From a virus: a stretch of 45,839 nucleotides of DNA. Shown here piece by piece: positions 3,576 through 45,324 of this stretch. The notes beneath the pieces were generated by a model. It saw only the letters and a program-made list of their open reading frames with translations, searched no databases and was not told where the DNA came from. The stretch covers positions 1 to 45,839 of the IMG/VR virus record IMGVR_UViG_3300005607_000019, one strand, 5' to 3'. The stretch's first letter is position 1. Each line of letters begins with the position of its first letter. Made by a program: the position numbers and the translations under genes.

Positions 3576-4871
3576 TCAGATTCCTCCTCCCAGGTTGGTG
3601 ACGAACGTCACACCGGCGCGCGTCGCACCGCTGCGGGGAACCGTGTTATTCTGAGAGTCCCACGGGAACGAGATCTTCTGTGACGCAAGCGTAGTCGTCC
3701 CAAAGAAGATGCGAGAGAAGTCAGACTTGACGTCGTTGGTCGCCACACCGTAGACGATCTTGATGAACTCGATCTGGCCCAGGTAACCTGACATCGGCAC
3801 GGGCCAGGGTTCAAACACTCCGACCCAGATGGGCCATTCGTTGTAGGGGTTACCCGGGATCTGTTTGTCGGGTGCGAAGTTCGCATCAACCGCAAAGTTG
3901 TTCTGAAAGTAATCAAGCTGCAGCTGGCCAACCGAACCCGTGTTGGGCATCGCGATGCCGCCTTGTTGTGACGAAGTGCCGGCGACATCGCCCCAGATGC
4001 TCTGATCCGACACCGAGATCGGGATGTTCGTCCACTGGAAGATGGTGCAGAACGGGTACGGGATGTTCTGGGCAATGTTCGGACGGGGAACGTAGAGACC
4101 TGCATAGGCGAGGTACGGTGATCCCGTTCCAGTGTCGTTGTAGTCGGTGAAGATGGCCCAACAATCATCGTCGGCTACGATGTTCATCCGCGTCGGCTGT
4201 GTGTCGCTCTGCAGGCCGTAGATGGACCCGCCGTTCTGCCGAGACTGTTGGTGGGCGCCGACTTGTTGCCCGCTCCCGGCGTTGCCATTGTTGCTTCGGG
4301 GAAAGACCATGGCGCCCGTGCCGCCGCCGGGTGGCGCTCCCCAGACTGGGTTTCCCTTCGTGTCAGCACCGTTGCCGTTCTGGGTCCCCTTCCATGGGTT
4401 GCCGTTATTGGGGCTGCCCGCAGATCCACCAGTGCCGCCGATTCCGATCGCTGCTTGGCACATCAATCCCGTCATGTTGACGCCCGTGTTACCTGCGCTG
4501 GTTCCATTTTGGATCAACGCCGGGGCACCTGGTGATTGACCGATCACGGTCGTGGCACCAGACTGGTTAGACGATCCTCCCCACTGGAACAGGTAGTAGA
4601 CGTCAAAGGGCCTCGCCGTCGTCGCGTTTGCCCTTACTACGAAGAACGCATTGTACCCGAACGAGTTGGCTTGATCGTAGTAGTTGGTTCCCGTCCCGCT
4701 CGAGGTGCTGTTGGGCAGGTTGGTGGTTGATCCGTACTGCAACGCGATCAGCGTGTAGTTGGGATGCGACGTGAAGAAGTCGTAGAGGTTCTTGAAGTAG
4801 ACCTGTGTTTCGTCCTGCCGGTTGTTGGCCGGGATCGCACACTCAATCTTGCCGCGTACAAGTCCGCTCAT
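3576..4871 (-). CDS. Adhesin-like virion protein, family A copy 2
   Basis: A 431-aa paralogue of the proteins at 2126-3574 and 4884-6188. It shares the N-terminal MSGLVRGKIEC, FFTSHPNYTLIALQYGSTT and FFVVRANATTARPFDVY segments, a central GSPNNGNPWKGTQNGNGADT block followed by WGAPPGGGTG and FPRSNN, and a C-terminal YLGQIEFIKIVYGV domain ending PWDSQNNTVPRSGATRAGVTF. The central block is almost identical at nucleotide level to that of the 4884 copy. It has a GGAG Shine-Dalgarno and starts 12 nt after the upstream paralogue. Its final codons GGA GGA GGA double as the SD of the next gene. Probably a structural or adhesive protein; no enzyme motif seen. Confidence 0.72.
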   Translation of the reverse strand: MSGLVRGKIECAIPANNRQDETQVYFKNLYDFFTSHPNYTLIALQYGSTTNLPNSTSSGTGTNYYDQANSFGYNAFFVVRANATTARPFDVYYLFQWGGSSNQSGATTVIGQSPGAPALIQNGTSAGNTGVNMTGLMCQAAIGIGGTGGSAGSPNNGNPWKGTQNGNGADTKGNPVWGAPPGGGTGAMVFPRSNNGNAGSGQQVGAHQQSRQNGGSIYGLQSDTQPTRMNIVADDDCWAIFTDYNDTGTGSPYLAYAGLYVPRPNIAQNIPYPFCTIFQWTNIPISVSDQSIWGDVAGTSSQQGGIAMPNTGSVGQLQLDYFQNNFAVDANFAPDKQIPGNPYNEWPIWVGVFEPWPVPMSGYLGQIEFIKIVYGVATNDVKSDFSRIFFGTTTLASQKISFPWDSQNNTVPRSGATRAGVTFVTNLGGGI

Positions 4872-6212: not shown

Positions 6213-9200
6213 TCAACGCCATTCGAGGCTCAGTTCTACTCCTCCCACATTGACGAAGTTGCTGCCCGACGGGTCGACCCAAGCCCGTGCGAGGAAGATG
6301 CCCGATCCAGTCACGGTCGACAAGACGTTAGAGATGTCCGCCTCCTGGAGCGTCAGGGTAGACGGCAACGAGGCCGTCAGGACTGAACCTGAGACTGGTC
6401 CCGGCGTTCCGTTGATGATGCCGCTGTAGTCGTAGAGGTCAACATACGCATTGCCGTTGCCGAAGACCGGCGCGAAGATCGCTCGGTACTTGTACGTCAG
6501 CGGGTCGATGTTCGTGTTGAACTTGCTACCATCGTACTTGTGAACGCCCAGGTTGGCCTTGCTGCCCGAGAACTGGGGCGTGGTTACCATCGCTGACAGG
6601 AACGGGATGGTAAACTGGCGGGACACCGAGCTGCCGGTGATCGCCATCCCAGAACCTGACTGGAACGTCAGGGTCCCCAGGATCGTCACGCTGCCGCTGA
6701 AGATGTTGTTGACGTTGCTCCCAATCTGGTTCAGTTGGGTCACCGTCGTGTTGCCGAAGCTAGCATTGCCCAACGCCTGGATCGACGACGTGGTGAACAG
6801 GAAGTTTCCCTCATCGAGCCAACCGTCGATGACGACACCCGTTCCACCTGGATCGAGCTCGTACATGAAGAGGTAAGTGTACGAGCCTTGTCCCACGAAG
6901 CTAGAACCAGACGTGTTGCTACCCATCACCTGGTACTGGTAGAAGCCTTGGTTGTTGACTGGATTTTGGTCGATCCAGAACAACGTTGGCATCCTGTTCC
7001 AGTCAGTGCTGCCCTCGCCGTCAACGAGCTGCAGGCCCTTCGAGCCCGTGGTGACGTTGCCGCCGTTGCGGAAGAAGGTGTAGTTGGTGCGCCCCGTCGT
7101 CGTGCTCGTGTTGCTGTTGATCGTAGCAATCAACAACACTGGTCGGCCACGAGTGATCAGACCCGCCGTTGGGTTCTGGACATCAACATCAGTATACGTC
7201 GGAGCGGCTGCGGGAGTGGTCTGCGTTGTGGTGAATGAATACTTGAAGTTGACGTCTGTCAGTTCCCACAAGATCAGCGACGACAGCTGGTTGCCGAAGT
7301 TGACGTGGTTGGTGCCCGCGCCGTTCGTCGCACGCATGATGTACGTGTTCGTCGCGCCAACAGTTGCACCCTGGTCCAAGACCATCCAGCAGCATCCCAT
7401 CAGCTCGTTGGTGTTACTACCAACGTTGACTGACATACCTGCGGTAGCACCGTTTGCGAGTGAGGTGCCATTTCGGAAGACGTCAGTCCAGCACCAGTTA
7501 CCACCTGCGTCGCTTGACGTGTTGCTGCTAGCGATGACGAGGACTGGGTTCTTTCGCGGGTTGATGCTGGCCGAGAGGCCGATCAAGTTGCCGCCCGGGA
7601 CTGCCTGCGACTGCGTCGTTGACGCGGTCACAACGTTAGCGCCCTTCATCTCGAAGGCCATCAGAGCGGTGGGTCCAACGCCCCATGCCCCCAATTCGCC
7701 AGCACCGACGACAGCTTCTGCCATCAGTTGGTAAGTGTGAGTGCCCGGTCCTGCACCGAAATCAACGTAGGCGAAGCTTGCGTTTGCGTTGAATGACTGG
7801 TTCAGCGGGCCCGCACCCTGCAAGCCCCCGCCGGGTGCCAGATTGACGCCGTCCCGGTTCAAGCTGAAGTATGCCTGCGCTCCGTTCGTCTGTGCGTTGT
7901 AGTTGGCGTTGGCCATGATCAAGACGGGAGCCCCCGTCGTCGTGATCGTCAGCTGCGTGTTTGGGACGAGCTGGTAGCCTGGCGTTCCCGTGTCGAATGG
8001 GAACGAGTTCGACGATGTCGCCATCGCGTAATTGGCAGGAGAGAACGCAGTGTTGCCGGCGCTGGCCGTGATCGAGTACTGGTTGACGGTCGCAGAACCC
8101 GACGGGATCAAGAACCACTGGACGTGGCCCGTCCGCATGTTCTGGGTGTCGATACCCACTCCGATAGGATCGCTAGTGGTCCAAGTCTGCTCCGTCGAAC
8201 CGCTGACCAAGTACTGCAGCGTGAACACGCTGCCAGAGTTGGCCTGGAGCAAACCCTCGAGGATCGCTGGTTGTTGGTTGTTTGTAGCGAAAGTTGTCCG
8301 CTGCAGGACCGTTCCATTTGAACCAGACAGGCGGAAAGCAATGTAAGTACCGGCGCCTGTACCACCGATCGCATTGAAGTACGACTGGAAGTTGTAGAGA
8401 CCCGTCTGCAGGACGGTGAACGTTGACCCGTTCCTCAGGATGTTGACAGATGGGCCCTCAGTGAAGTTGCCAAAGACCTCTGACACGTTGTGCCAGCTGC
8501 CGCTGCCCGAGAACAGGAGGCTGCCGGTGCAGTACCCGTAGTAGGCAGCGAAGGAACCCGGCACGTTGCCCGGGACGACGCCCGGGATGTTGATCGTAGC
8601 TACTCCACCGACGTCAAACGTCTGGACACCGGTGCCCTGGAAGTTGATGGTCTGGTACGGGCTGTTGGGCAGCACCGCCCCCGCGTTCTCGACGTTGATG
8701 CCAGAGATCCCGCTGCCTCCACCGCCGATGGAGCTCGAGACAACGATCTGACCCAGTGAGTTCGTCAAGATCTGGGTGCCACCGAGCCCGATGATGTACG
8801 GGTTGCCCGTCGGCATCTGGGTGATCGAACCCGTGATGCCGGCTGCTCCCTTGACATTGAGCGACCCCGACATGACCACGTCGCCGCCGAAGACGCCCTT
8901 AGCTGGGCTGGCATTGGCGACGGGCTCCTGTGCCCCCACGGTGCCGCTGACATAGAAGAAGATGTCCTTCCCCTTCATGCCCGCGTAGACGTTTTCGGTG
9001 CCATCCGAGATGGCCACAGAGGAGGTTGTCCGGATCTGGCTGGGTCCCCAGGGTGAGATGCCTCCCTCGACCCAGGCATTCGGTCCCGACAGCGACCCGC
9101 TTGTGATGTTGCTGGTGCCCGAGCCGCTGATCTGCATGACCCCAGACAGGATCAGCGACACGATTGCAGTGGCATCGGGGCGGCCCGATTCCCAGACCTG

Positions 9201-38505: not shown

Positions 38506-38552
38506 TACGTCAGATCGTAACGCACACGCGATAGATTGTTCAGGATCTTAGG

Positions 38553-38626
38553 CGCCCCCGGTGGGATTCGAACCCACAACCGCTTCGGGTTGAAATCCGG
38601 CTGCTCTACCTTTGAGCTACGGGAGC
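38553..38626 (-). tRNA. tRNA, anticodon region tentatively UUC (Glu); unusual anticodon arm
   Basis: A 74-nt cloverleaf on the minus strand. The acceptor GCTCCCG pairs with CGGGGGC (one G-U), the D-arm is GCTC/GAGC, and the T-arm is GTGGG-TTCGAAT-CCCAC. The anticodon arm reads GCCGG-ATTTCAA-CCCGA, with T33 and TTC at 34-36, but only three of five stem pairs form (G-A at 27/43 and C-C at 29/41 fail). The extra spacing also allows an 8-nt loop. Discriminator is G; the next bases are CCT, so CCA is not encoded. It lies 1 nt after the CCA of the neighbouring tRNA. The tRNA call is firm; the amino acid is tentative. Confidence 0.75.
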
Positions 38627-38627
38627 T

Positions 38628-38703
38628 TGGAGGGCCTGATGGGGTTCGAACCCACGACGCACCGGGTTGAAATCCGGGTACTCTGCCTCTGAGTTACAGG
38701 CCC
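38628..38703 (-). tRNA. tRNA, anticodon region tentatively UUC (Glu); CCA encoded
   Basis: A 76-nt gene including CCA (38628-38630). Acceptor GGGCCTG/CAGGCCC is perfect, D-arm ACTC/GAGT, T-arm GTGGG-TTCGAAC-CCCAT. The anticodon arm is CCCGG-ATTTCAA-CCCGG with a C-C mismatch at 29/41, or a 4-bp CCGG/CCGG stem with an 8-nt loop. TTC sits at 34-36 in the first reading. It shares a 15-nt anticodon core with the next tRNA. It begins 7 nt after the SpoT-like gene, so it is probably cut from the same transcript. Confidence 0.8.
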
Positions 38704-38710
38704 GCTCAGA

Positions 38711-39328
38711 TCAAGTATCACACTCGAGCAACGTCGCCTGCCTCTCGGTCTCGCGACGCACTGCGTCACGGAGCCAGGCCGCGCGGTCACGGTGTTTGAT
38801 GGGCACCAGGTGCATCATCCGGTCGAACAATGGGAAGTATTTCTCGCGTGTTTCAGCGACCTGCTTCGCCCGAAACTCTCGCGAGGTGCCGGGCAGCGTG
38901 CGGTTGTTGTCCAGACGGTCGCACCCCTTGACGATGTAGGGCCACCATAGGGTGCACGAGTTGAAGCGTTCGAGGTAGCCCTCCTTCGGTGTCTTGCTCA
39001 GGACCTTGACGGTCGTGGCGACCTTGCTGCCGAAGCAGTGCTCGATGATGCCCGGCGTCACGTCACGAGTGTCCTCTGGACAGTCGTGCAGCAACGCCGA
39101 GATGATGAGCCCGGGCTCGATGATCTTGACCTCGTCGATGAGCGTCAGGGCAACGCGGCGCGGGTGCTCAAAGTAACGCACCGGCTTGCCGTCGGGTCCG
39201 AGCTCCTTGCGCCTCTGGGAACGGTGGCCAAACTTCGCCAGGGTGTAGGCGAGCTGGATGTCGAGCAAGTCGCTCGGCGCCAACATCGGCTCCAACCTGG
39301 CGAAGAAGGCGGTGCGGTTCTCGGTCAC
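38711..39328 (-). CDS. SpoT/MESH1-like HD hydrolase
   Basis: A 205-aa HD-domain protein of the SpoT hydrolase/MESH1 type, without synthetase or regulatory domains. Metal and catalytic residues are H55 (YFEHPRRVA), H81-D82 (ALLHDCPEDT, with E85/D86) and D137-R138 in KGCDRLDNNRT; H35 of FGHRSQRR fits the usual leading segment. Such small enzymes hydrolyse (p)ppGpp or related alarmones, and MESH1 also removes the phosphate from NADPH. The start is GTG, overlapping the upstream stop (GTGA) with GAGG as SD. It sits between a tRNA-binding domain and two tRNAs. Alternative substrates include other pyrophosphorylated nucleotides made by toxins. Confidence 0.88.
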   Translation of the reverse strand: MTENRTAFFARLEPMLAPSDLLDIQLAYTLAKFGHRSQRRKELGPDGKPVRYFEHPRRVALTLIDEVKIIEPGLIISALLHDCPEDTRDVTPGIIEHCFGSKVATTVKVLSKTPKEGYLERFNSCTLWWPYIVKGCDRLDNNRTLPGTSREFRAKQVAETREKYFPLFDRMMHLVPIKHRDRAAWLRDAVRRETERQATLLECDT

Positions 39329-39660
39329 CCCAACCTCGTGCCCGGTCTGACGGTGCCCGGGAGCAGCGCGACCTGCACTCCACCGTCGATCTCGGCGGCG
39401 AGGATCATACCGTTGCTCTCCAGGCCCTTCATGGTGCGGGGCGGCAGGTTGACGACGAAGGCCGCCGTCATGTCGACCAACGTCGACGGTTCGTAGCTCC
39501 TGCTGATGCGAGCGAGGACCTGTCGGGTTCCCAGCTCACCGAAGTCGACTTGCAACTTCAGGAGCTCGGACTTGGGAACCGCCTCGGCCGCGGTGATGCG
39601 GCCGGCGCGGATGTCGACCTTCATGAAGTCGTCGAAGGTGCAGGTGCTTGCTTGGTCCAT
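39325..39660 (-). CDS. Free-standing tRNA-binding domain (EMAP-II/CsaA/MetRS-C-like)
   Basis: A 111-aa OB-fold tRNA-binding domain of the kind found at the C-terminus of methionyl-tRNA synthetase and in CsaA/Trbp111. Diagnostic segments are FMKVDIRAGRI, AVPKSELLKLQVDFGE, QVLARISRSYEP and VVNLPPRTMKGLESNGMILA. I chose the ATG at 39660 (MDQASTC) because GGGAAG lies 5 nt before it and it follows the Pth2-like stop as TGA-C-ATG. An ATG at 39672 would add 4 residues but overlap more. It may deliver or protect tRNA; CsaA homologues have also been linked to protein export, so tRNA binding is the more likely but not the only option. Confidence 0.87.
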   Translation of the reverse strand: MDQASTCTFDDFMKVDIRAGRITAAEAVPKSELLKLQVDFGELGTRQVLARISRSYEPSTLVDMTAAFVVNLPPRTMKGLESNGMILAAEIDGGVQVALLPGTVRPGTRLG

Positions 39661-39661
39661 G

Positions 39662-40018
39662 TCACTTCCCATGGTTCAATTCTCTAAGCGCCAAGGGCAG
39701 TCCTTTGCACAGCTCGGCGGTCTTGGGATGCGGCTCGATTGCGATCGCGGTGATGGCACCGCCGACGTCGGGCTCCCGGAACGCCGACCAGCGGAGGCCG
39801 GCGTCCTGGGCTTGCGTGATGAGACGCATCAGCTCGACTTCGTTCTCGACCGACAGCCACCCAAGGTAGTTCGAGTTCTTGAACCACTCGGCATCGCGCT
39901 CCGGATGGTCGGCCGTGAACTGCCGCAGAGCGTGCTGGGACTGCACCCCCTGGTACCCGGGCGGGATGTCCCGACGGGTCACCACGTAGAGCTTGTCACC
40001 CATCTTGATGGTGGCCAT
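39662..40018 (-). CDS. Pth2-like peptidyl-tRNA hydrolase family protein
   Basis: A 118-aa protein with the small alpha/beta fold of Pth2-type peptidyl-tRNA hydrolases: KLYVVTRRDIPPGYQGVQSQ, then HA (28-29), LGWLSVENEVELMRL and FREPDVGGAITAIAIEPHP followed by LPLAL. In Pth2 enzymes the first segment is KGKxAAQxxHA with catalytic lysine; here it is GYQGVQSQHA, so the Lys is missing and activity may be changed. The start at 40018 (MATIKMG) has GAGGAAA as SD 5 nt upstream; a longer frame to 40177 overlaps the upstream gene and is rejected. Neighbours handle tRNA, which fits the call. Confidence 0.7.
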   Translation of the reverse strand: MATIKMGDKLYVVTRRDIPPGYQGVQSQHALRQFTADHPERDAEWFKNSNYLGWLSVENEVELMRLITQAQDAGLRWSAFREPDVGGAITAIAIEPHPKTAELCKGLPLALRELNHGK

Positions 40019-40026
40019 GGCTTTCC

Positions 40027-40449
40027 TCAGCTTGCCTTTTCGAGGGCGGTCTGAGGGGGCTCCACGACCCACTGCGACGTGCCGTTTGCTTGCTTGACCC
40101 ACTTGCCCGTGCCTCCCTCGAGCAGCTTCGTGACCGTCTCCAGGTCGTACTTGATGTACCCCCGTTTCGGGTCCCACCCGTTGTGAGCCGTCATGATGTC
40201 GAGGACGACTTGCGGGTTGAGCTTGTTGTTTTCGGCGGGCTGCTCGATCTGGCCGTACGGTACACCGCGGAGGAGCCCGTATGCAACCAGGTGGGCACGG
40301 CAGTGATTGCCAAGAGCCCGCTTTTCGTTCCAGAGACGGTTCTTGCGCTCTTTCTCCGTCTTGGAGATACGCGATGCAATGGTGCTACCCGCGCACTGAA
40401 AGCCGCGGATCTTGGCACGGAGAACCTGAAGACCGATGGGAAATGACAT
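40027..40449 (-). CDS. Hypothetical protein (140 aa)
   Basis: A 140-aa basic protein starting MSFPIGLQVLRAKIRGF. Residues 25-60 are rich in Lys/Arg (ISKTEKERKNRLWNEKRALG, NHCRAHLVAYGLLRGVPYGQ), followed by a region with two probable helices (LNPQVVLDIMTAHNGWDPKR, YIKYDLETVTKLLEGGTGKW). Basic character with a helical end would suit nucleic-acid binding, but no HTH or zinc motif is evident. GAGG is the SD with 9 nt spacing. It heads a set of translation-linked genes (Pth2-like, tRNA-binding, SpoT-like, tRNAs). Family not recognised. Confidence 0.65.
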   Translation of the reverse strand: MSFPIGLQVLRAKIRGFQCAGSTIASRISKTEKERKNRLWNEKRALGNHCRAHLVAYGLLRGVPYGQIEQPAENNKLNPQVVLDIMTAHNGWDPKRGYIKYDLETVTKLLEGGTGKWVKQANGTSQWVVEPPQTALEKAS

Positions 40450-40593: not shown

Positions 40594-41121
40594 TCAGACA
40601 GGTCGTTGTACAGGCGAGATGCTGTAGTGCACCACACCACGTTTGTCGACGTAGCGAAGCCTCTTCTTGAGCTTGTTCCACGACCAGAGCTGGATGACGG
40701 GGCCGGGCCGGCTGGAGTCGAAGATCAGGTACCCGCGTGCTGACACGTGCAAGCAAGCGATCCAATGCTCCCACCGCTCAACGCTGAGGACAAGCGGGAT
40801 GCCCTTCTTGAGCAGCCTGTGGATCTGCCGCTTGGCCTCCGCCGCGCTCTCAACGTCGATGGTTCGCCACCGCCCGCCCACGAGGAACGCTCCGAGCTCC
40901 ATGCCCCGGTCTCCGGTGCCCGCTCGGGTCGAGTGGCACATCCGGATCAGGTCGTACGGGTCGATGTCAAGGCCCAGCTTCAGGAAGCAGTGACGCAGAG
41001 CCCAAGGCCCACATGCCCACTTGTTCTTCTGTGGATAGATCAGCGACCCGGCAACGCACACGGGGTTTGCCTCGGTTCCCAGACCGACGTGTTTGTACGC
41101 CTCCCGGACGAACCGTGACAT
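40594..41121 (-). CDS. Papain/C39-like cysteine peptidase-fold protein (175 aa)
   Basis: A 175-aa protein with a papain-like triad layout: Cys37 in WACGPWALRHCFLKLG, His119 in RWEHWIACLHVSARG and Asp135 in YLIFDSSRPG, preceded by the helix KRQIHRLLKKGIPLVLSV that in C39-type peptidases precedes the His strand. No signal peptide or membrane segment. It starts directly after the macro domain stop (TGA-ATG). It could be a peptidase that cuts a host or phage protein, an isopeptidase/deamidase or a transglutaminase-like acyltransferase; all share this triad. Position in a nucleotide metabolism set suggests a host-takeover or anti-defence role rather than a structural one. Confidence 0.72.
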   Translation of the reverse strand: MSRFVREAYKHVGLGTEANPVCVAGSLIYPQKNKWACGPWALRHCFLKLGLDIDPYDLIRMCHSTRAGTGDRGMELGAFLVGGRWRTIDVESAAEAKRQIHRLLKKGIPLVLSVERWEHWIACLHVSARGYLIFDSSRPGPVIQLWSWNKLKKRLRYVDKRGVVHYSISPVQRPV

Positions 41122-41685
41122 TCACTTGTTCCAGGGCACCGTCCTGGCATCCTTGGTGTCGAAGTCGTAGACGTAAGTGTCCACGTCGGCAAGGGCCCGT
41201 TCGATGATGGGTTCGATCTCGGTCCACTTGCCTCCCGCCAAGCCGCAGCCGATGCGGGGCATGTGGACGCTGCCACCGCCGATGTGTTCGACGAAGGCCT
41301 TGACTTGCTTCAGGCACTTTTCCAGTGCATCGTACCTGATGGGTGGGACGCCGTTCTGGACAAGGACACCGTGTTGGCCGATCATGTTGGCGACGTAGGT
41401 GATCTCCTTGAACGGAGGCAGGCCCACGTGAGCGACAGGCACGAACATCACTGCACCAAGCTCCAGCTTTTGACCGATGGTGACGTCGCTGTAGCCCGGG
41501 ACGAGCAGCATGTTCTCCTGCTCCTGGTACCAGCGGCGGTACATCTGCTCGGGCTCGGGCCATCGCTTGGACAGAGACAGGACGAAACCACGTCCCCATC
41601 CGCCGATGTCATTGCAGACATGTGCAATGATCTTGTTACCCTTGACCTTCGGGTCAGTGGCGTCTCCCTCGAGGTACGTGATCAT
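41122..41685 (-). CDS. Macro domain protein (ADP-ribose binding/hydrolysing)
   Basis: A 187-aa macro domain. Key segments are ITYLEGDATDP, IIAHVCNDIGGWGRGF (N25-D26 and the glycine loop that hold ADP-ribose), ITYVANMIGQHGV, PPIRYDALEKCLKQV and HMPRIGCGLAGGKWTEIEPI (the second phosphate loop). This matches the ALC1/Poa1p-type branch, which removes phosphate from ADP-ribose 1''-phosphate or ADP-ribose from targets. Start chosen at 41685 because GGAGAAAAC precedes it and it gives an ATGA overlap with the phosphatase stop; an upstream in-frame start only adds non-conserved residues. Substrate could be Appr1p from tRNA repair, or ADP-ribosylated DNA, RNA or protein. Confidence 0.9.
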   Translation of the reverse strand: MITYLEGDATDPKVKGNKIIAHVCNDIGGWGRGFVLSLSKRWPEPEQMYRRWYQEQENMLLVPGYSDVTIGQKLELGAVMFVPVAHVGLPPFKEITYVANMIGQHGVLVQNGVPPIRYDALEKCLKQVKAFVEHIGGGSVHMPRIGCGLAGGKWTEIEPIIERALADVDTYVYDFDTKDARTVPWNK

Positions 41686-42125
41686 GTTTTCTCCGGGAAG
41701 TTGTCTACAACGTATTTCGCAAAGGTCTGGTTGTTCAGAGCGAAGGGCCGACGGCTGGACACAGTGTCGACGGCTTCTCGGCCCGAACACCCGGTCAGCA
41801 TGCACAGGGCCATCGCGCTGACGATGCCGCTGCGGTTCTGGCCCGCTTCGCAGGTGACCAGCACGTTGCGACCCGCCAGGATGTGTTCAACCACGAGCTC
41901 GGCGGCCGCTCGCCAGGTGTCGATGAACCGAGCCAGGCGATGGGGCCGAGCATCGTCGTCGCCAGGAGCTTTGATGACGACGAGGCCGGGGTAGCACGTC
42001 GCATCTTGCCATGTTCCGGCACAGAGGACTAGGACGTCTACCCCGGCGTTTTTCAGGCCGTCACCCGGGGGTGGCCTGCCACCCTGGAAGAGGTGGTCGT
42101 GGATCTTGTGAGCAGTGTATGACAC
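41682..42125 (-). CDS. Dual-specificity phosphatase-like protein
   Basis: A 147-aa cysteine-based phosphatase. The P-loop is VTCEAGQNRSG with Cys92 and Arg98 (CX5R) followed by a helix; the usual His before Cys is Thr91. The acidic run APGDDD at 53-58 fits the general-acid loop. HDHLFQGGRPPPGDGL at the N-terminus and LVVEHILAGRNVLV match the DSP fold. Length is typical for a minimal catalytic domain. Target may be phosphoprotein, phosphoinositide, RNA 5'-end, or a phosphorylated sugar or ADP-ribose; the macro domain overlapping by 4 nt suggests the last. The loss of the His may lower activity. Confidence 0.82.
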   Translation of the reverse strand: MSYTAHKIHDHLFQGGRPPPGDGLKNAGVDVLVLCAGTWQDATCYPGLVVIKAPGDDDARPHRLARFIDTWRAAAELVVEHILAGRNVLVTCEAGQNRSGIVSAMALCMLTGCSGREAVDTVSSRRPFALNNQTFAKYVVDNFPEKT

Positions 42126-42142
42126 CGTTATATTCTACACCG
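42126..42142 (-). promoter_or_regulatory. AT-rich gap upstream of the phosphatase gene
   Basis: The 17-nt gap between the nicotinamide phosphoribosyltransferase stop and the phosphatase start reads GTAGAATATAAC on the minus strand, the most AT-rich spot of the region. It could hold a phage-type -10 element for a transcript starting almost at the ATG, but no SD is present and no -35 is seen. Weak. Confidence 0.2.
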
Positions 42143-43585
42143 TCAGATGGCGGTGCGAGCCCGGACTTCCTTCAGGGTGGTGTGGTACGTGATTTCGCCA
42201 CGATCGTAGTAGGTCACCAGCACTGAATCCGGGTGCTGGTCGACGCCGTCGTCGAGGACCACGGTGCGGTACCCATTGCCGTACTTGATGAGATCGAGCC
42301 GGCCTTCCTTCGAGCGCTTGCCACGGTCGGTGATGGGCGACTTCGACACCTTCCGGCCCTTGCCCCCGACGATGGCGTAGCACAGCTTGAAAGCGTGCTT
42401 CTGGGTGTCACGGTTGAAGTCCATCAGCAGTCCGCCGCCCGAGCCAAAGGCCAGGTTCGACGCGCTCCAACCGTGGTCGGTGACAGCGGCGAGGATCGAC
42501 TTCATGCTGCGGCGGTTGATACCGTCGCCCCAGATCATGCGGAAGTACGGCGGCAGGACCTTGTAGCCCTTGCCGTTCTTCGTGACCTCGCCCTCGGGCA
42601 AGCACTCTTCGAAGATCCTGAAGAGCTTCAGCAACGTGTCGATCGGGTCGCCCGAGTCGGGGCGGACGACCAGGGTGCCGCCGCTGTTCTTGACGAGGAG
42701 CCGGACGTCGTCCTCGCACACCATCCGGGTGAACCGGAAGATGTCCCAGGAGTCTCCGACGCAGGCCGCGAGTTTCGGGATGCCTGGCGGCAGCTGGCGT
42801 TCAACGAGGGTCTTGGTCACCCAGCGGATGACCGTCTGTTTCTCGTTCTCCTCGCCGAAGATCGTCATCGTCGAGTGCTCGGTCGCGGGGATGCTGAAGC
42901 CCGACATCTCCTCGTCGTAGTAGTGGTTGGCCATCATGACGCCAGCCAAAGTGTCACTGCCCAGGAAACCCGCGGCCAGGTGGGCTGCACCACCGAGCAT
43001 TGCCTGCTCACGGCAGGTGACGCCGCGGCTGCCGAAGTCGTGGTGCTTGAAGACGATCTCCTCCGGCGTGTCGCTGGTCTTGTCGAGGTAGTGCTTCCAG
43101 ACCTTCATGACCTCGCGGCTGCCGATGATGACGTCGCTGGGGTACCAAAGGCGTGACAACTCCGTCTCCAGCCAGTTGGTGACCCAAGCGATCTTGGGAT
43201 CGCGTGGCGACCGGACGACGATGATGACGTTGCTGATGGGGACGATGAGGCCCTCCGGGATCGCCCGGATGGTGACGGGGATGTACCCGTACTTCTCCTT
43301 CATGTACCGCCAGCCCTCAAGGTTGAAGGGCTCACCGTGCTTCTCGGCGAAGGAGGCCATGCGGTCGATTGCCTCGTCGGTGAGGGGCTCGGCCAGGTAC
43401 CGGTGGATGAAGTACTGGAGCGCGAACAGCGAACACTCGGTGAACTCGCCGCCACGAGCTTCGAAGTAGCTCTCCATGTACTCCATGTCGTCGGGGTACA
43501 GGAGGAAGTGGCTCAGCTTGTAGCTGTCAGTGTCGATGATGTTGTCGAGGTTGAGGATTGTCTTCCTCTTGAATGCGGTTCTCAT
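42143..43585 (-). CDS. nadV: Nicotinamide phosphoribosyltransferase (NadV/NAMPT)
   Basis: A 480-aa enzyme that makes NMN from nicotinamide and PRPP. Family signatures: NIIDTDSYKLSHFLLYP, FKHHDFGSRGV (FGSRG at 184-188), GSDTLAG (D211), FSIPATEHSTM (H237, the phosphorylated His position), LVVRPDSGDP (R308 and D310), WGDGI and FGSGGGLLMDFNRDTQKHAF. Length fits NAMPT (about 490 aa). I chose the start at 43585 (MRTAFKRKT) because GGAGAG lies 7 nt upstream; an in-frame ATG at 43648 would add 21 non-conserved residues and overlap the upstream gene. The same SD block (CACGGAGAGTG) precedes the NadM-Nudix gene. Together they make NAD+ from nicotinamide. Confidence 0.95.
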   Translation of the reverse strand: MRTAFKRKTILNLDNIIDTDSYKLSHFLLYPDDMEYMESYFEARGGEFTECSLFALQYFIHRYLAEPLTDEAIDRMASFAEKHGEPFNLEGWRYMKEKYGYIPVTIRAIPEGLIVPISNVIIVVRSPRDPKIAWVTNWLETELSRLWYPSDVIIGSREVMKVWKHYLDKTSDTPEEIVFKHHDFGSRGVTCREQAMLGGAAHLAAGFLGSDTLAGVMMANHYYDEEMSGFSIPATEHSTMTIFGEENEKQTVIRWVTKTLVERQLPPGIPKLAACVGDSWDIFRFTRMVCEDDVRLLVKNSGGTLVVRPDSGDPIDTLLKLFRIFEECLPEGEVTKNGKGYKVLPPYFRMIWGDGINRRSMKSILAAVTDHGWSASNLAFGSGGGLLMDFNRDTQKHAFKLCYAIVGGKGRKVSKSPITDRGKRSKEGRLDLIKYGNGYRTVVLDDGVDQHPDSVLVTYYDRGEITYHTTLKEVRARTAI

Positions 43586-43644
43586 GATCACTCTCCGTGA
43601 TGTTGTGCCTCGCGGGCCTCTCTGGCTCGATCGGGGCGGGTAGG

Positions 43645-44703
43645 TCACATGTAGATCTGGAAGTTGTTCCCACGGGCACGGAAGTAGTCGATGATGTGCC
43701 AGTGGTCACTGAAGAACTTGTCCCGATTGTTGTCGATGTCCAGGATCGACATCCACCAGGCCTTGTCTGCATCGTCCTCGCCCTTCACCTCCGGCAGCGG
43801 ACCGGGAGGAAGGTTGAGGCAGAAGGCGTGTGTCACCACACGCCCTCGGAGGTCGCGTGACGGGTGACCGAAGACGTGGTTGTCGACGATCATCTCGTAC
43901 AGGTCACGCTGGGGGATCTTGATGGCCGTTTCCTCTTTGAGCTCACGGATGCAGCTCTTCTCAAGGGTTTCTTCCACATTGAGGTAGCCCCCGGGAAGCG
44001 CAACCTGGCCCTTCCCGTACTTGCCTCCGCGGCGGACAACAAGGATGTGGCCGCTGCACACGCAGACGGCATCGACGGTGATGAAATGGGGTGGAAAGCG
44101 CTTCGGCTCCAGCTTGGGCCCGCGGTTCTTCTCCTGCTCCTCCCACAGGAAGTGTTGCTCGTCGTGGAGCCGCTTGAACTCGTCGGTCTCCATCCATTTC
44201 ACGAGACGGTCGTAAACGGGGCCAGGCACGTAGTGCTTGATGCCGATCTTGTCCTGCGTGAACATCAGATCACGGATGTGTGTCGCATCGAGCATCGCCA
44301 GCTCGGGAGAGACTGGAGTCTCGACGTGGGGACCCCACTGCGGGAACAGCTTCAGGTAGAAGCTCGACGCGTCCTTCTTGTGGCCGAAGAGCTTGATGTC
44401 CTTGCTGTCGCCGGTGTGGTCCTTGATCGCCTTCTGGACGCCGCCGACCCAACGGAGGTTGTTGTAGTAGAAGTCCTCGAGGTACGCGAACCGGACACGC
44501 TTGCGCTCTTCCGGAGTGAGGCACTCGAGGATCATCTCGGCCCGCTCGGGACCGGAGAAGGGGTTACGGGTGTCGGGGGCTTGGTTGCAGCTGCCCACGC
44601 CGATCACCAACGTCTGCGCTTCCTTAAGCGCGAAACGCACCGCTTCAAGGTGCGCTAGGTGGAAGGGCTGGAAACGCCCGATGAAAACGCCAAACTCGTA
44701 CAT
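43645..44703 (-). CDS. nadM: Bifunctional NMN adenylyltransferase / Nudix hydrolase
   Basis: A 352-aa fusion. The N-terminal domain is an NMN adenylyltransferase of the NadM type: GRFQPFHLAH (9-18) is the nucleotide-binding loop and DATHIRDLMF (about 139-148) the ISSTxIR-like motif. The C-terminal Nudix domain has GGYLNVEETLEKSCIRELKE followed by ETAI, i.e. GX5EX7REUXEE with Ala replacing the late Gly. It converts NMN and ATP to NAD+ and hydrolyses ADP-ribose or a similar dinucleotide. Start at 44703 (MYEFGVFIG) with GGAGAG upstream; a longer frame to 44787 is not conserved. Similar fusions occur in Francisella-type bacteria and in phages. Confidence 0.94.
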   Translation of the reverse strand: MYEFGVFIGRFQPFHLAHLEAVRFALKEAQTLVIGVGSCNQAPDTRNPFSGPERAEMILECLTPEERKRVRFAYLEDFYYNNLRWVGGVQKAIKDHTGDSKDIKLFGHKKDASSFYLKLFPQWGPHVETPVSPELAMLDATHIRDLMFTQDKIGIKHYVPGPVYDRLVKWMETDEFKRLHDEQHFLWEEQEKNRGPKLEPKRFPPHFITVDAVCVCSGHILVVRRGGKYGKGQVALPGGYLNVEETLEKSCIRELKEETAIKIPQRDLYEMIVDNHVFGHPSRDLRGRVVTHAFCLNLPPGPLPEVKGEDDADKAWWMSILDIDNNRDKFFSDHWHIIDYFRARGNNFQIYM

Positions 44704-44829
44704 GACACTCTCCGTGTTGAGTACCAGCGACCCCTCTCTGGGATCATGGCTGGCGACGGTGTTCCCGTCTTGAGTAGTACGTATCACCTCTCACGCACTT
44801 GTTTCATCAGTGGGGCCTACTTACATGCC
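44704..44829. promoter_or_regulatory. Divergent intergenic region
   Basis: A 126-nt gap separates the leftward NAD genes from the rightward 164-aa gene. The GGAGAG SD of nadM lies at 44704-44716 on the minus strand. TTGAGTAGTACGTATCACC near 44770-44790 contains a word close to -35 (TTGAGT) on the + strand with GTATCA nearby, but neither strand shows a consensus promoter with correct spacing. It is nevertheless the obvious place for two divergent promoters. Confidence 0.35.
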
Positions 44830-45324
44830 ATGGGGAATTTGTCGCTCTTGCTGGAATACGTCAAGCTGGTCCTCGAAGCGGAGTCCCCGCCCATCCGAGA
44901 ACCCTTTGTCATCAGGGGCCCAATTAAGCCCATGAAGGGCGCCGCGGGTGCCTACGCCATCTACCGCGAGTTTCCGCTCGTTGTGCCGCCCGAGGCAATG
45001 GACGCCATGCGCGTGACGCCCGACGAGCTGACGGACGGAGTGCTTGATGGAGAGCACGAGATCATCGTTGATGTCGACGTCTATTACAAGAAAAGCAAGT
45101 TCAAGGGAAGCTACTTCCAGCCTCCCGATCCAGATGAATGGGAGCTTGAAGATTGGACCGTTGAGGGCATCAACGGTGTCGCTCTTTCCCCCGATGATGC
45201 CAAGGCACTCAAAGCCTACTTGGGTCGTTACCTGACCGACGATGAAATCGAGAAGATCCAGAACGCCTGGATGGAGCGGTACCGCGACGATGACGGCGAT
45301 CCCAGCTTTTATGATGACATCTGA
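44830..45324 (+). CDS. Acidic hypothetical protein (164 aa)
   Basis: A 164-aa acidic protein starting MGNLSLLLEYVKLVLEAESP. The central part has YAIYREFPLVVPPEAMDAMR, HEIIVDVDVYYKKSKFKGSY and PPDPDEWELEDWTVEGINGV; the C-terminus is LSPDDAKALKAYLGRYLTDD, EIEKIQNAWMERYRDDDGDP, SFYDDI. A helix-strand alternation with a strongly acidic tail is visible but no motif. The start at 44830 is chosen because the frame upstream is not protein-like; GTGGGG is a weak SD. It is transcribed away from nadM and converges on the next gene with 2 nt between stops. An antisense frame also exists but its composition is not protein-like. Acidic small phage proteins often act as inhibitors or DNA mimics; that is only a possibility here. 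Confidence 0.72.
   Translation: MGNLSLLLEYVKLVLEAESPPIREPFVIRGPIKPMKGAAGAYAIYREFPLVVPPEAMDAMRVTPDELTDGVLDGEHEIIVDVDVYYKKSKFKGSYFQPPDPDEWELEDWTVEGINGVALSPDDAKALKAYLGRYLTDDEIEKIQNAWMERYRDDDGDPSFYDDI

Follow-up and report, generated by a model that had tools for sequence, protein, structure and literature searches.

The window analysed here is the whole 45.8-kb stretch (45,839 nt) of an IMG/VR virus record from a large soil phage. Near one end, the minus strand carries four genes in tandem, in the order NadM-Nudix, NadV, phosphatase and macrodomain, and a fifth gene abuts the macrodomain gene:

44703–43645, minus strand: NadM-Nudix, an NMN adenylyltransferase fused to a Nudix domain (gene call, NF003791, 2QJO)
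43585–42143, minus strand: NadV, a Nampt-type nicotinamide phosphoribosyltransferase (gene call, 7YQO)
42125–41682, minus strand: dual-specificity-type cysteine phosphatase (gene call, DSPc, predicted DSP fold)
41685–41122, minus strand: macrodomain, assigned to the SCO6735/Bt_1257 (ALC1-like) subclass (sequence, predicted fold, residues)
40594–41121, minus strand: abutting gene, present in some relatives only and not counted as part of the module

The initial annotation had described the phosphatase and macrodomain genes as overlapping or nearly so. The measured gaps are 59 nt (NadM-Nudix to NadV) and 17 nt (NadV to phosphatase), and the phosphatase and macrodomain genes overlap by 4 nt (ATGA). 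NadM and NadV share a near-identical ribosome-binding leader, CACGGAGAGTG, ahead of their ATG. A simple scan saw no minus-strand terminators within the four-gene stretch which, together with the spacing, makes co-transcription plausible. Pfam-type family scans recovered NUDIX (1e-14) and CTP_transf_like (1.5e-11) for NadM-Nudix, NAPRTase (6e-35) and NAMPT_N (1e-17) for NadV, DSPc just over the cut-off (3e-8) for the phosphatase, and Macro just below it (5e-4) for the macrodomain.

L011 (L-numbers denote the contigs compared), a relative whose genes are in the same order, comes from a 369-kb contig, so the window phage is probably a jumbo phage; macrodomains have been reported in 56% of jumbo phages (PMC9503650). 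A baseplate protein of the window owes its annotation to PHROG baseplate wedge families and is ∼29% identical to proteins of cultured phages, and its matches include a 484-kb uncultured phage as well as Flavobacterium and Microcystis phages. By megablast, the operon region had no nucleotide match among cultured phages. Several neighbouring genes were also observed. The gene abutting the macrodomain gene has a conserved WACGPWALRHC stretch and is possibly cysteine-peptidase-like. Further downstream lie a PTH2-like peptidyl-tRNA hydrolase, a stand-alone tRNA-binding domain and two tRNA-Glu genes (39662–40027, 39325–39672 and 38551–38703), possibly a tRNA or translation-repair set, and an HD-domain hydrolase (38711–39328) with a RelA/SpoT-like HD_4 signature just below cut-off. 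In Mesorhizobium phage Cp1R7A-A1, an annotated (p)ppGpp hydrolase directly precedes the NadM–NadV pair. On the opposite strand, a 221-aa ORF (44659–45324, plus strand) overlaps the NadM start and has conserved counterparts in L010, L023 and L026.

NARP2, as reportedly described by Osterman et al. in 2024, consists of a phage Nampt and an NMN adenylyltransferase, and secondary accounts assign it a role in NAD+ restoration. NadM-Nudix of the window matched NCBIfam NF003791 (E = 5e-106), aligned along its length with Synechocystis 2QJO (E = 3e-88) and kept the nucleotidyltransferase motif GRFQPFHLAH. The Nudix domain named in the initial annotation is recognizable by its Nudix box, GYLNVEETLEKSCIRELKEETAI, with the last Gly replaced by Ala; because the box varies among some relatives, e.g. 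L027, cleavage of ADP-ribose by this domain is suggested at the level of the family only. The closest solved relative of NadV was a bacterial Nampt (Xanthomonas Nampt 7YQO, E = 3e-106), with human Nampt also close, and the motifs EHSTM (catalytic His), FLGSDT and GSGGGLL were kept. NadV carries GSGGGLLMDFNRD and lacks the clamp signature GSX-X-X-TRD that marks Namat (PMC12774641), and should therefore use PRPP. Judged by these motifs and matches, NadV is a Nampt and not a Namat, and with the NMN adenylyltransferase 59 nt upstream on the same strand it forms a NARP2-type pair, as had been proposed for this locus. Neither of the NARP1 hallmarks was found: the Namat signature was not present in the window NadV, and no Adps (PRPP-synthetase-like) partner was detected among the scanned genes around the operon. 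The window row thus resembles NARP2 in that a Nampt-type NadV adjoins NadM-Nudix on one strand, and differs from it by the added macrodomain and an optional phosphatase.

The macrodomain fell just below the Pfam threshold; its assignment was made firm by a profile match to the PDB and by its predicted fold. A profile of phage macrodomain relatives retrieved Bt_1257 (2AFC/2FG1) and SCO6735 (5E3B) with E-values of 1e-61 or better (top ∼1e-65). The AlphaFold2 model (pLDDT 87.5) matched Bt_1257 (2FG1) with Z = 25.0 and an rmsd of 1.0 and SCO6735 with Z = 22.7 and an rmsd of 1.5; TARG1, DarG and ALC1 followed at Z = 16–17 and Poa1p at 15.6. Residues H22, N25 and Q104 are conserved, and Q104 and N25 correspond to Gln85 and Asn27 of SCO6735, positions that are each kept (as Gln and Asn, respectively) in 70 of 73 distinct phage macrodomain proteins. 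On the evidence of sequence, predicted fold and the key Gln, the window protein belongs to the SCO6735/Bt_1257 (ALC1-like) subclass, which sets it apart from generic ADP-ribose binders. It shares with these proteins the fold, the Gln85 equivalent, Asn27 and His24, and differs in being phage-borne, in its linkage to NAD+ salvage and at two lysines of SCO6735 that serve DNA positioning and lie outside the subclass definition, namely Lys34, which is Arg32 in the window protein (conservative), and Lys89, which is Leu108 (non-conservative). SCO6735 outpaces both DarG and TARG1 in stripping ADP-ribose from thymidine modified by DarT, also acts on Glu/Asp-ADPr protein, rescues Escherichia coli from DarT, and requires Gln85 on both DNA and protein substrates (PMC9411070). 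The ADP-ribose-type macrodomain of the initial annotation could thus be placed in a subclass with proven hydrolase activity on DarT-modified DNA, and by analogy the window protein may itself be a dT-ADPr hydrolase.

Three other identities were weighed for the macrodomain. Membership of the DarG antitoxins was rejected, as the protein reached 38 of 250 bits on the NCBIfam equivalog and has Gln at the position of the catalytic Lys80; family scans found no darT beside the gene. As a Poa1p-type ADPR-1''-phosphatase it keeps the equivalents of His23 and Asn26, H22 and N25, but Ser30 is replaced by Gly29, and Poa1p is the more distant structural match. T4 Tk.4 falls in the same broad PHROG (phrog_335), but the close relatives of the window protein are SCO6735-type.

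The CX5R phosphatase of the initial annotation proved to be DSP-type, with CX5R(S/T), the Asp loop and a DSP fold all present, but its signature, TC-EAGQN-RS (Cys92, Arg98), is TCX5R and not the classical HCX5R: in each of the six aligned relatives, the catalytic Cys is preceded by Thr instead of His. The DDD (Asp) loop is invariant among aligned relatives, and the predicted model (pLDDT 86) has a DSP fold with Foldseek E-values of ∼1e-5 to PTP/DSP structures. As Cys, Arg and the Asp loop are kept, the enzyme is probably active. We found no relatives of it in cultured phages or in a scan of bacterial genome contigs.

The gene row recurs in related contigs. NadM–NadV–DSP–macrodomain order was observed in L009, L010, L011, L013, L023, L026 and L036, NadV–DSP–x–macrodomain in L030, NadM–NadV–macrodomain in L018, L024 and L035, and NadM–macrodomain in L027; in L024, a DUF1937/DUF4406 ORF (7621–7995) lies between NadM and NadV. 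The phosphatase is an optional part of the row, being missing between NadV and the macrodomain gene in L018, L024/L025 and L035 and standing alone, without a macrodomain, in L101. Its link to NAD+ genes accordingly does not recur, and this part of the initially proposed combined module found little or no support. These relatives share much of the surrounding gene order and therefore represent one lineage, in which adjacency alone proves little because the neighbourhood is largely syntenic. The two enzymes nevertheless have conflicting trees: that of NadM groups the window with L010, L013, L023 and L026, whereas in that of NadV the window joins L009 and L013, far from the group that contains L026. 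A single NadM/NadV history was rejected by AU tests (p = 7e-6 and 3e-42) on groups picked after the trees were seen. The conflict implies that the enzymes were exchanged while the order and the set of genes stayed.

Gene-neighbourhood co-occurrence, the check suggested for the module at the outset, gave a mixed answer. Among IMG/VR records carrying this macrodomain family together with NadV, the two lie within 3 kb of each other in 7 of 10 (0.8 expected), but when counted by lineage the adjacency was seen twice against 0.55 expected (P ∼0.09). The statistic alone is not decisive, and more weight attaches to independent pathways and macrodomain subfamilies. Many macrodomains of the same subclass occur in phages without any NadV. 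In Streptomyces phages, Faust has one (L003 3321–4477) behind an annotated ADP-ribosyltransferase, Sham has one (L002 5774–6480) behind a short hypothetical gene, and the neighbour of that in Annadreamy is annotated as Sir2. The function of the macrodomain thus needs no NAD+ salvage.

Outside the window lineage, macrodomain genes were found beside the other NAD+ rebuilding pathway, NARP1. Pseudomonas phages PaP1, EM and KoPa-4 have the order Adps–x–Namat–(small ORFs)–macrodomain and Vibrio phage Brizo has Adps–macrodomain–Namat, with the Namat motif exact in PaP1, EM and Brizo and near-exact in KoPa-4 (SRD for TRD). These operons (Pakpunavirus PaP1/Adele, Vibrio phage Brizo) resemble the window in holding a macrodomain gene within or just behind the NAD+ rebuilding genes; they differ in consisting of Adps and Namat (GSYTYQ..TRD) and in their Poa1-like macrodomain, which forms a separate branch with 99% support in a quick tree. 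Macrodomains have therefore joined NAD+ rebuilding more than once. Fused NAMPT+macrodomain queries found the two genes close together in 272 and 139 cultured-phage records, many of them from one Pseudomonas genus. A natural fusion of the two suspected in Pseudomonas phage EM is actually two genes. With a fused NadM+macrodomain query, no cultured-phage record joined both, and the joining distance was probably too short to span NadV. A further case is L037, a phage without the window's neighbourhood, in which NadM, NADAR, macrodomain and NadV genes lie within 8 kb and the NADAR gene (3881–4525, E = 6e-49) sits between NadM and the macrodomain. In all, three or more phage groups show the link between macrodomains and NAD+ rebuilding, and to that extent the idea of a combined module is supported.

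Parts of this idea are already published. NAD+ salvage, macrodomains, NADAR, SLOG and DUF4326–macrodomain fusions have been proposed as phage answers to NAD+–ADPr immunity (PMC9503650, PMC7824862); NADAR beside NadM/NadV was predicted, and DUF4326, a rhodanese-phosphatase domain, is fused to macrodomains in phages (PMC9503650). The NADAR/SLOG/macrodomain/DUF4326 neighbourhoods of Iyer et al. (2021, 2022) likewise place ADPr-processing domains near NadM/NadV; there, a rhodanese-phosphatase-superfamily domain is fused to the macrodomain, whereas the window has an SCO6735-type macrodomain and a free-standing DSP that is not DUF4326. In phage Adele, a Poa1-like macrodomain downstream of NARP1 was proposed to free ADPR for NARP1, and PaP1 lowers host NAD+ despite its NARP1 (PMC12846349). 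RyDEP, in turn, releases ADPR from cADPR, and NARP1 turns this ADPR into NAD+ (PMC13232231). Here too an ADPR-freeing enzyme lies beside NAD+-rebuilding enzymes, but RyDEP is an RyR-domain glycosidase acting on cADPR whose ADPR is used directly, whereas ADPR in the window phage would pass through AMP and ribose-5-phosphate. In the literature searched, we found no NARP2–macrodomain(–DSP) operon, no SCO6735 assignment of its macrodomain and no parallel drawn between the NARP types.

From gene identities and order, the macrodomain subclass, active-site residues and recurrence, we infer an erase-and-rebuild counter-defence, in which a macrodomain ADP-ribosyl hydrolase is added to a NARP2-type operon; we consider the chances of this reading to be about even. 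The attacker would be a defence that consumes NAD+, in the simplest case DarTG or a different ADP-ribosyltransferase. A DarT-like enzyme would use NAD+, freeing nicotinamide and putting ADP-ribose on the DNA (or protein) of the phage. Cleavage by the macrodomain would then remove the ADP-ribose and restore the template, and the released ADP-ribose may be split by the Nudix domain into AMP and ribose-5-phosphate, which host enzymes could convert into ATP and PRPP. NadV would combine nicotinamide and PRPP into NMN, and NadM would turn NMN into NAD+. We favour this counter-defence reading because the Gln85 and Asn27 equivalents are kept, because gene order has persisted despite the tree conflict, because NARP1 and L037 provide independent macrodomain links and because RyDEP sets a precedent. 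Weighing against it are the changes at Lys34 and Lys89, the many macrodomains of this subclass that occur without NadV or next to Sir2/ART genes, the synteny of the neighbourhood within the lineage, the frequency of macrodomains in jumbo phages and the fall of host NAD+ under PaP1.

It is possible, if somewhat unlikely, that the targets of the macrodomain are instead small signals or toxins built on ADP-ribose (ADPR-1''-phosphate, cADPR isomers, His-ADPR), which it would hydrolyse or bind like a sponge, thereby blocking Thoeris-like signalling, while NadV and NadM repair the NAD+ loss. Iyer and co-workers argue that soluble ADPr derivatives are the main targets of macrodomains in phages (PMC9503650), those linked to NARP1 are Poa1-like (PMC12846349) and RyDEP acts in this way beside NARP1 (PMC13232231). 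The window macrodomain, however, is SCO6735-type, a group known best for acting on dT-ADPr DNA and Glu/Asp-ADPr protein, and has Gly in place of Ser30 of Poa1p. We think it unlikely that the arrangement is a coincidence, with NadM–NadV as a metabolic pair and the macrodomain and phosphatase as unrelated early genes in a variable slot of one jumbo-phage lineage. The flanking genes are indeed syntenic as well, slot genes come and go (L027, L030, L101) and adjacency is not significant by lineage, but gene order outlasted the swapping of NadM and NadV, and in unrelated phages a different macrodomain subfamily lies beside a different NAD+ rebuilding pathway, L037 being a further case of such a link. 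Finally, it appears quite improbable that NAD+ salvage and the macrodomain support RNA repair or host takeover by the phage itself, through reactions that use NAD+ (Sir2/KptA-type, leaving ADPR-phosphates from which the phosphatase removes phosphate), and not counter-defence: an RNA ligase-like gene lies at 72–1310 of the window, RNA ligases occur near NARP1–macrodomain operons and an RNA-repair role was proposed for some macrodomain/2H/KptA sets (PMC7824862), but no KptA, Sir2 or ART turned up in those window proteins that were scanned, and the phosphatase is often missing.

More broadly, and as a tentative proposal, the erase-and-rebuild reading suggests that phages may repeatedly have joined erasing to rebuilding, recruiting different macrodomain subfamilies to both NAD+ pathways so that ADP-ribose stripped from DNA or signals is fed back; in the window, an SCO6735-type DNA eraser and NARP2 would face DarT-like ADP-ribosyltransferases and not NADases. 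In existing descriptions, the NARP pathways counter NADases. With an ADP-ribosyl eraser linked to them, their reach would include defences such as DarTG, in which NAD+ is consumed to modify phage DNA, and the recovery of the spent ADP-ribose would be accounted for. Such a link also predicts that the eraser and NadV/NadM act together against DarTG, and points to a likely substrate class for part of phrog_335, a large phage family mostly annotated as 'phosphatase'.
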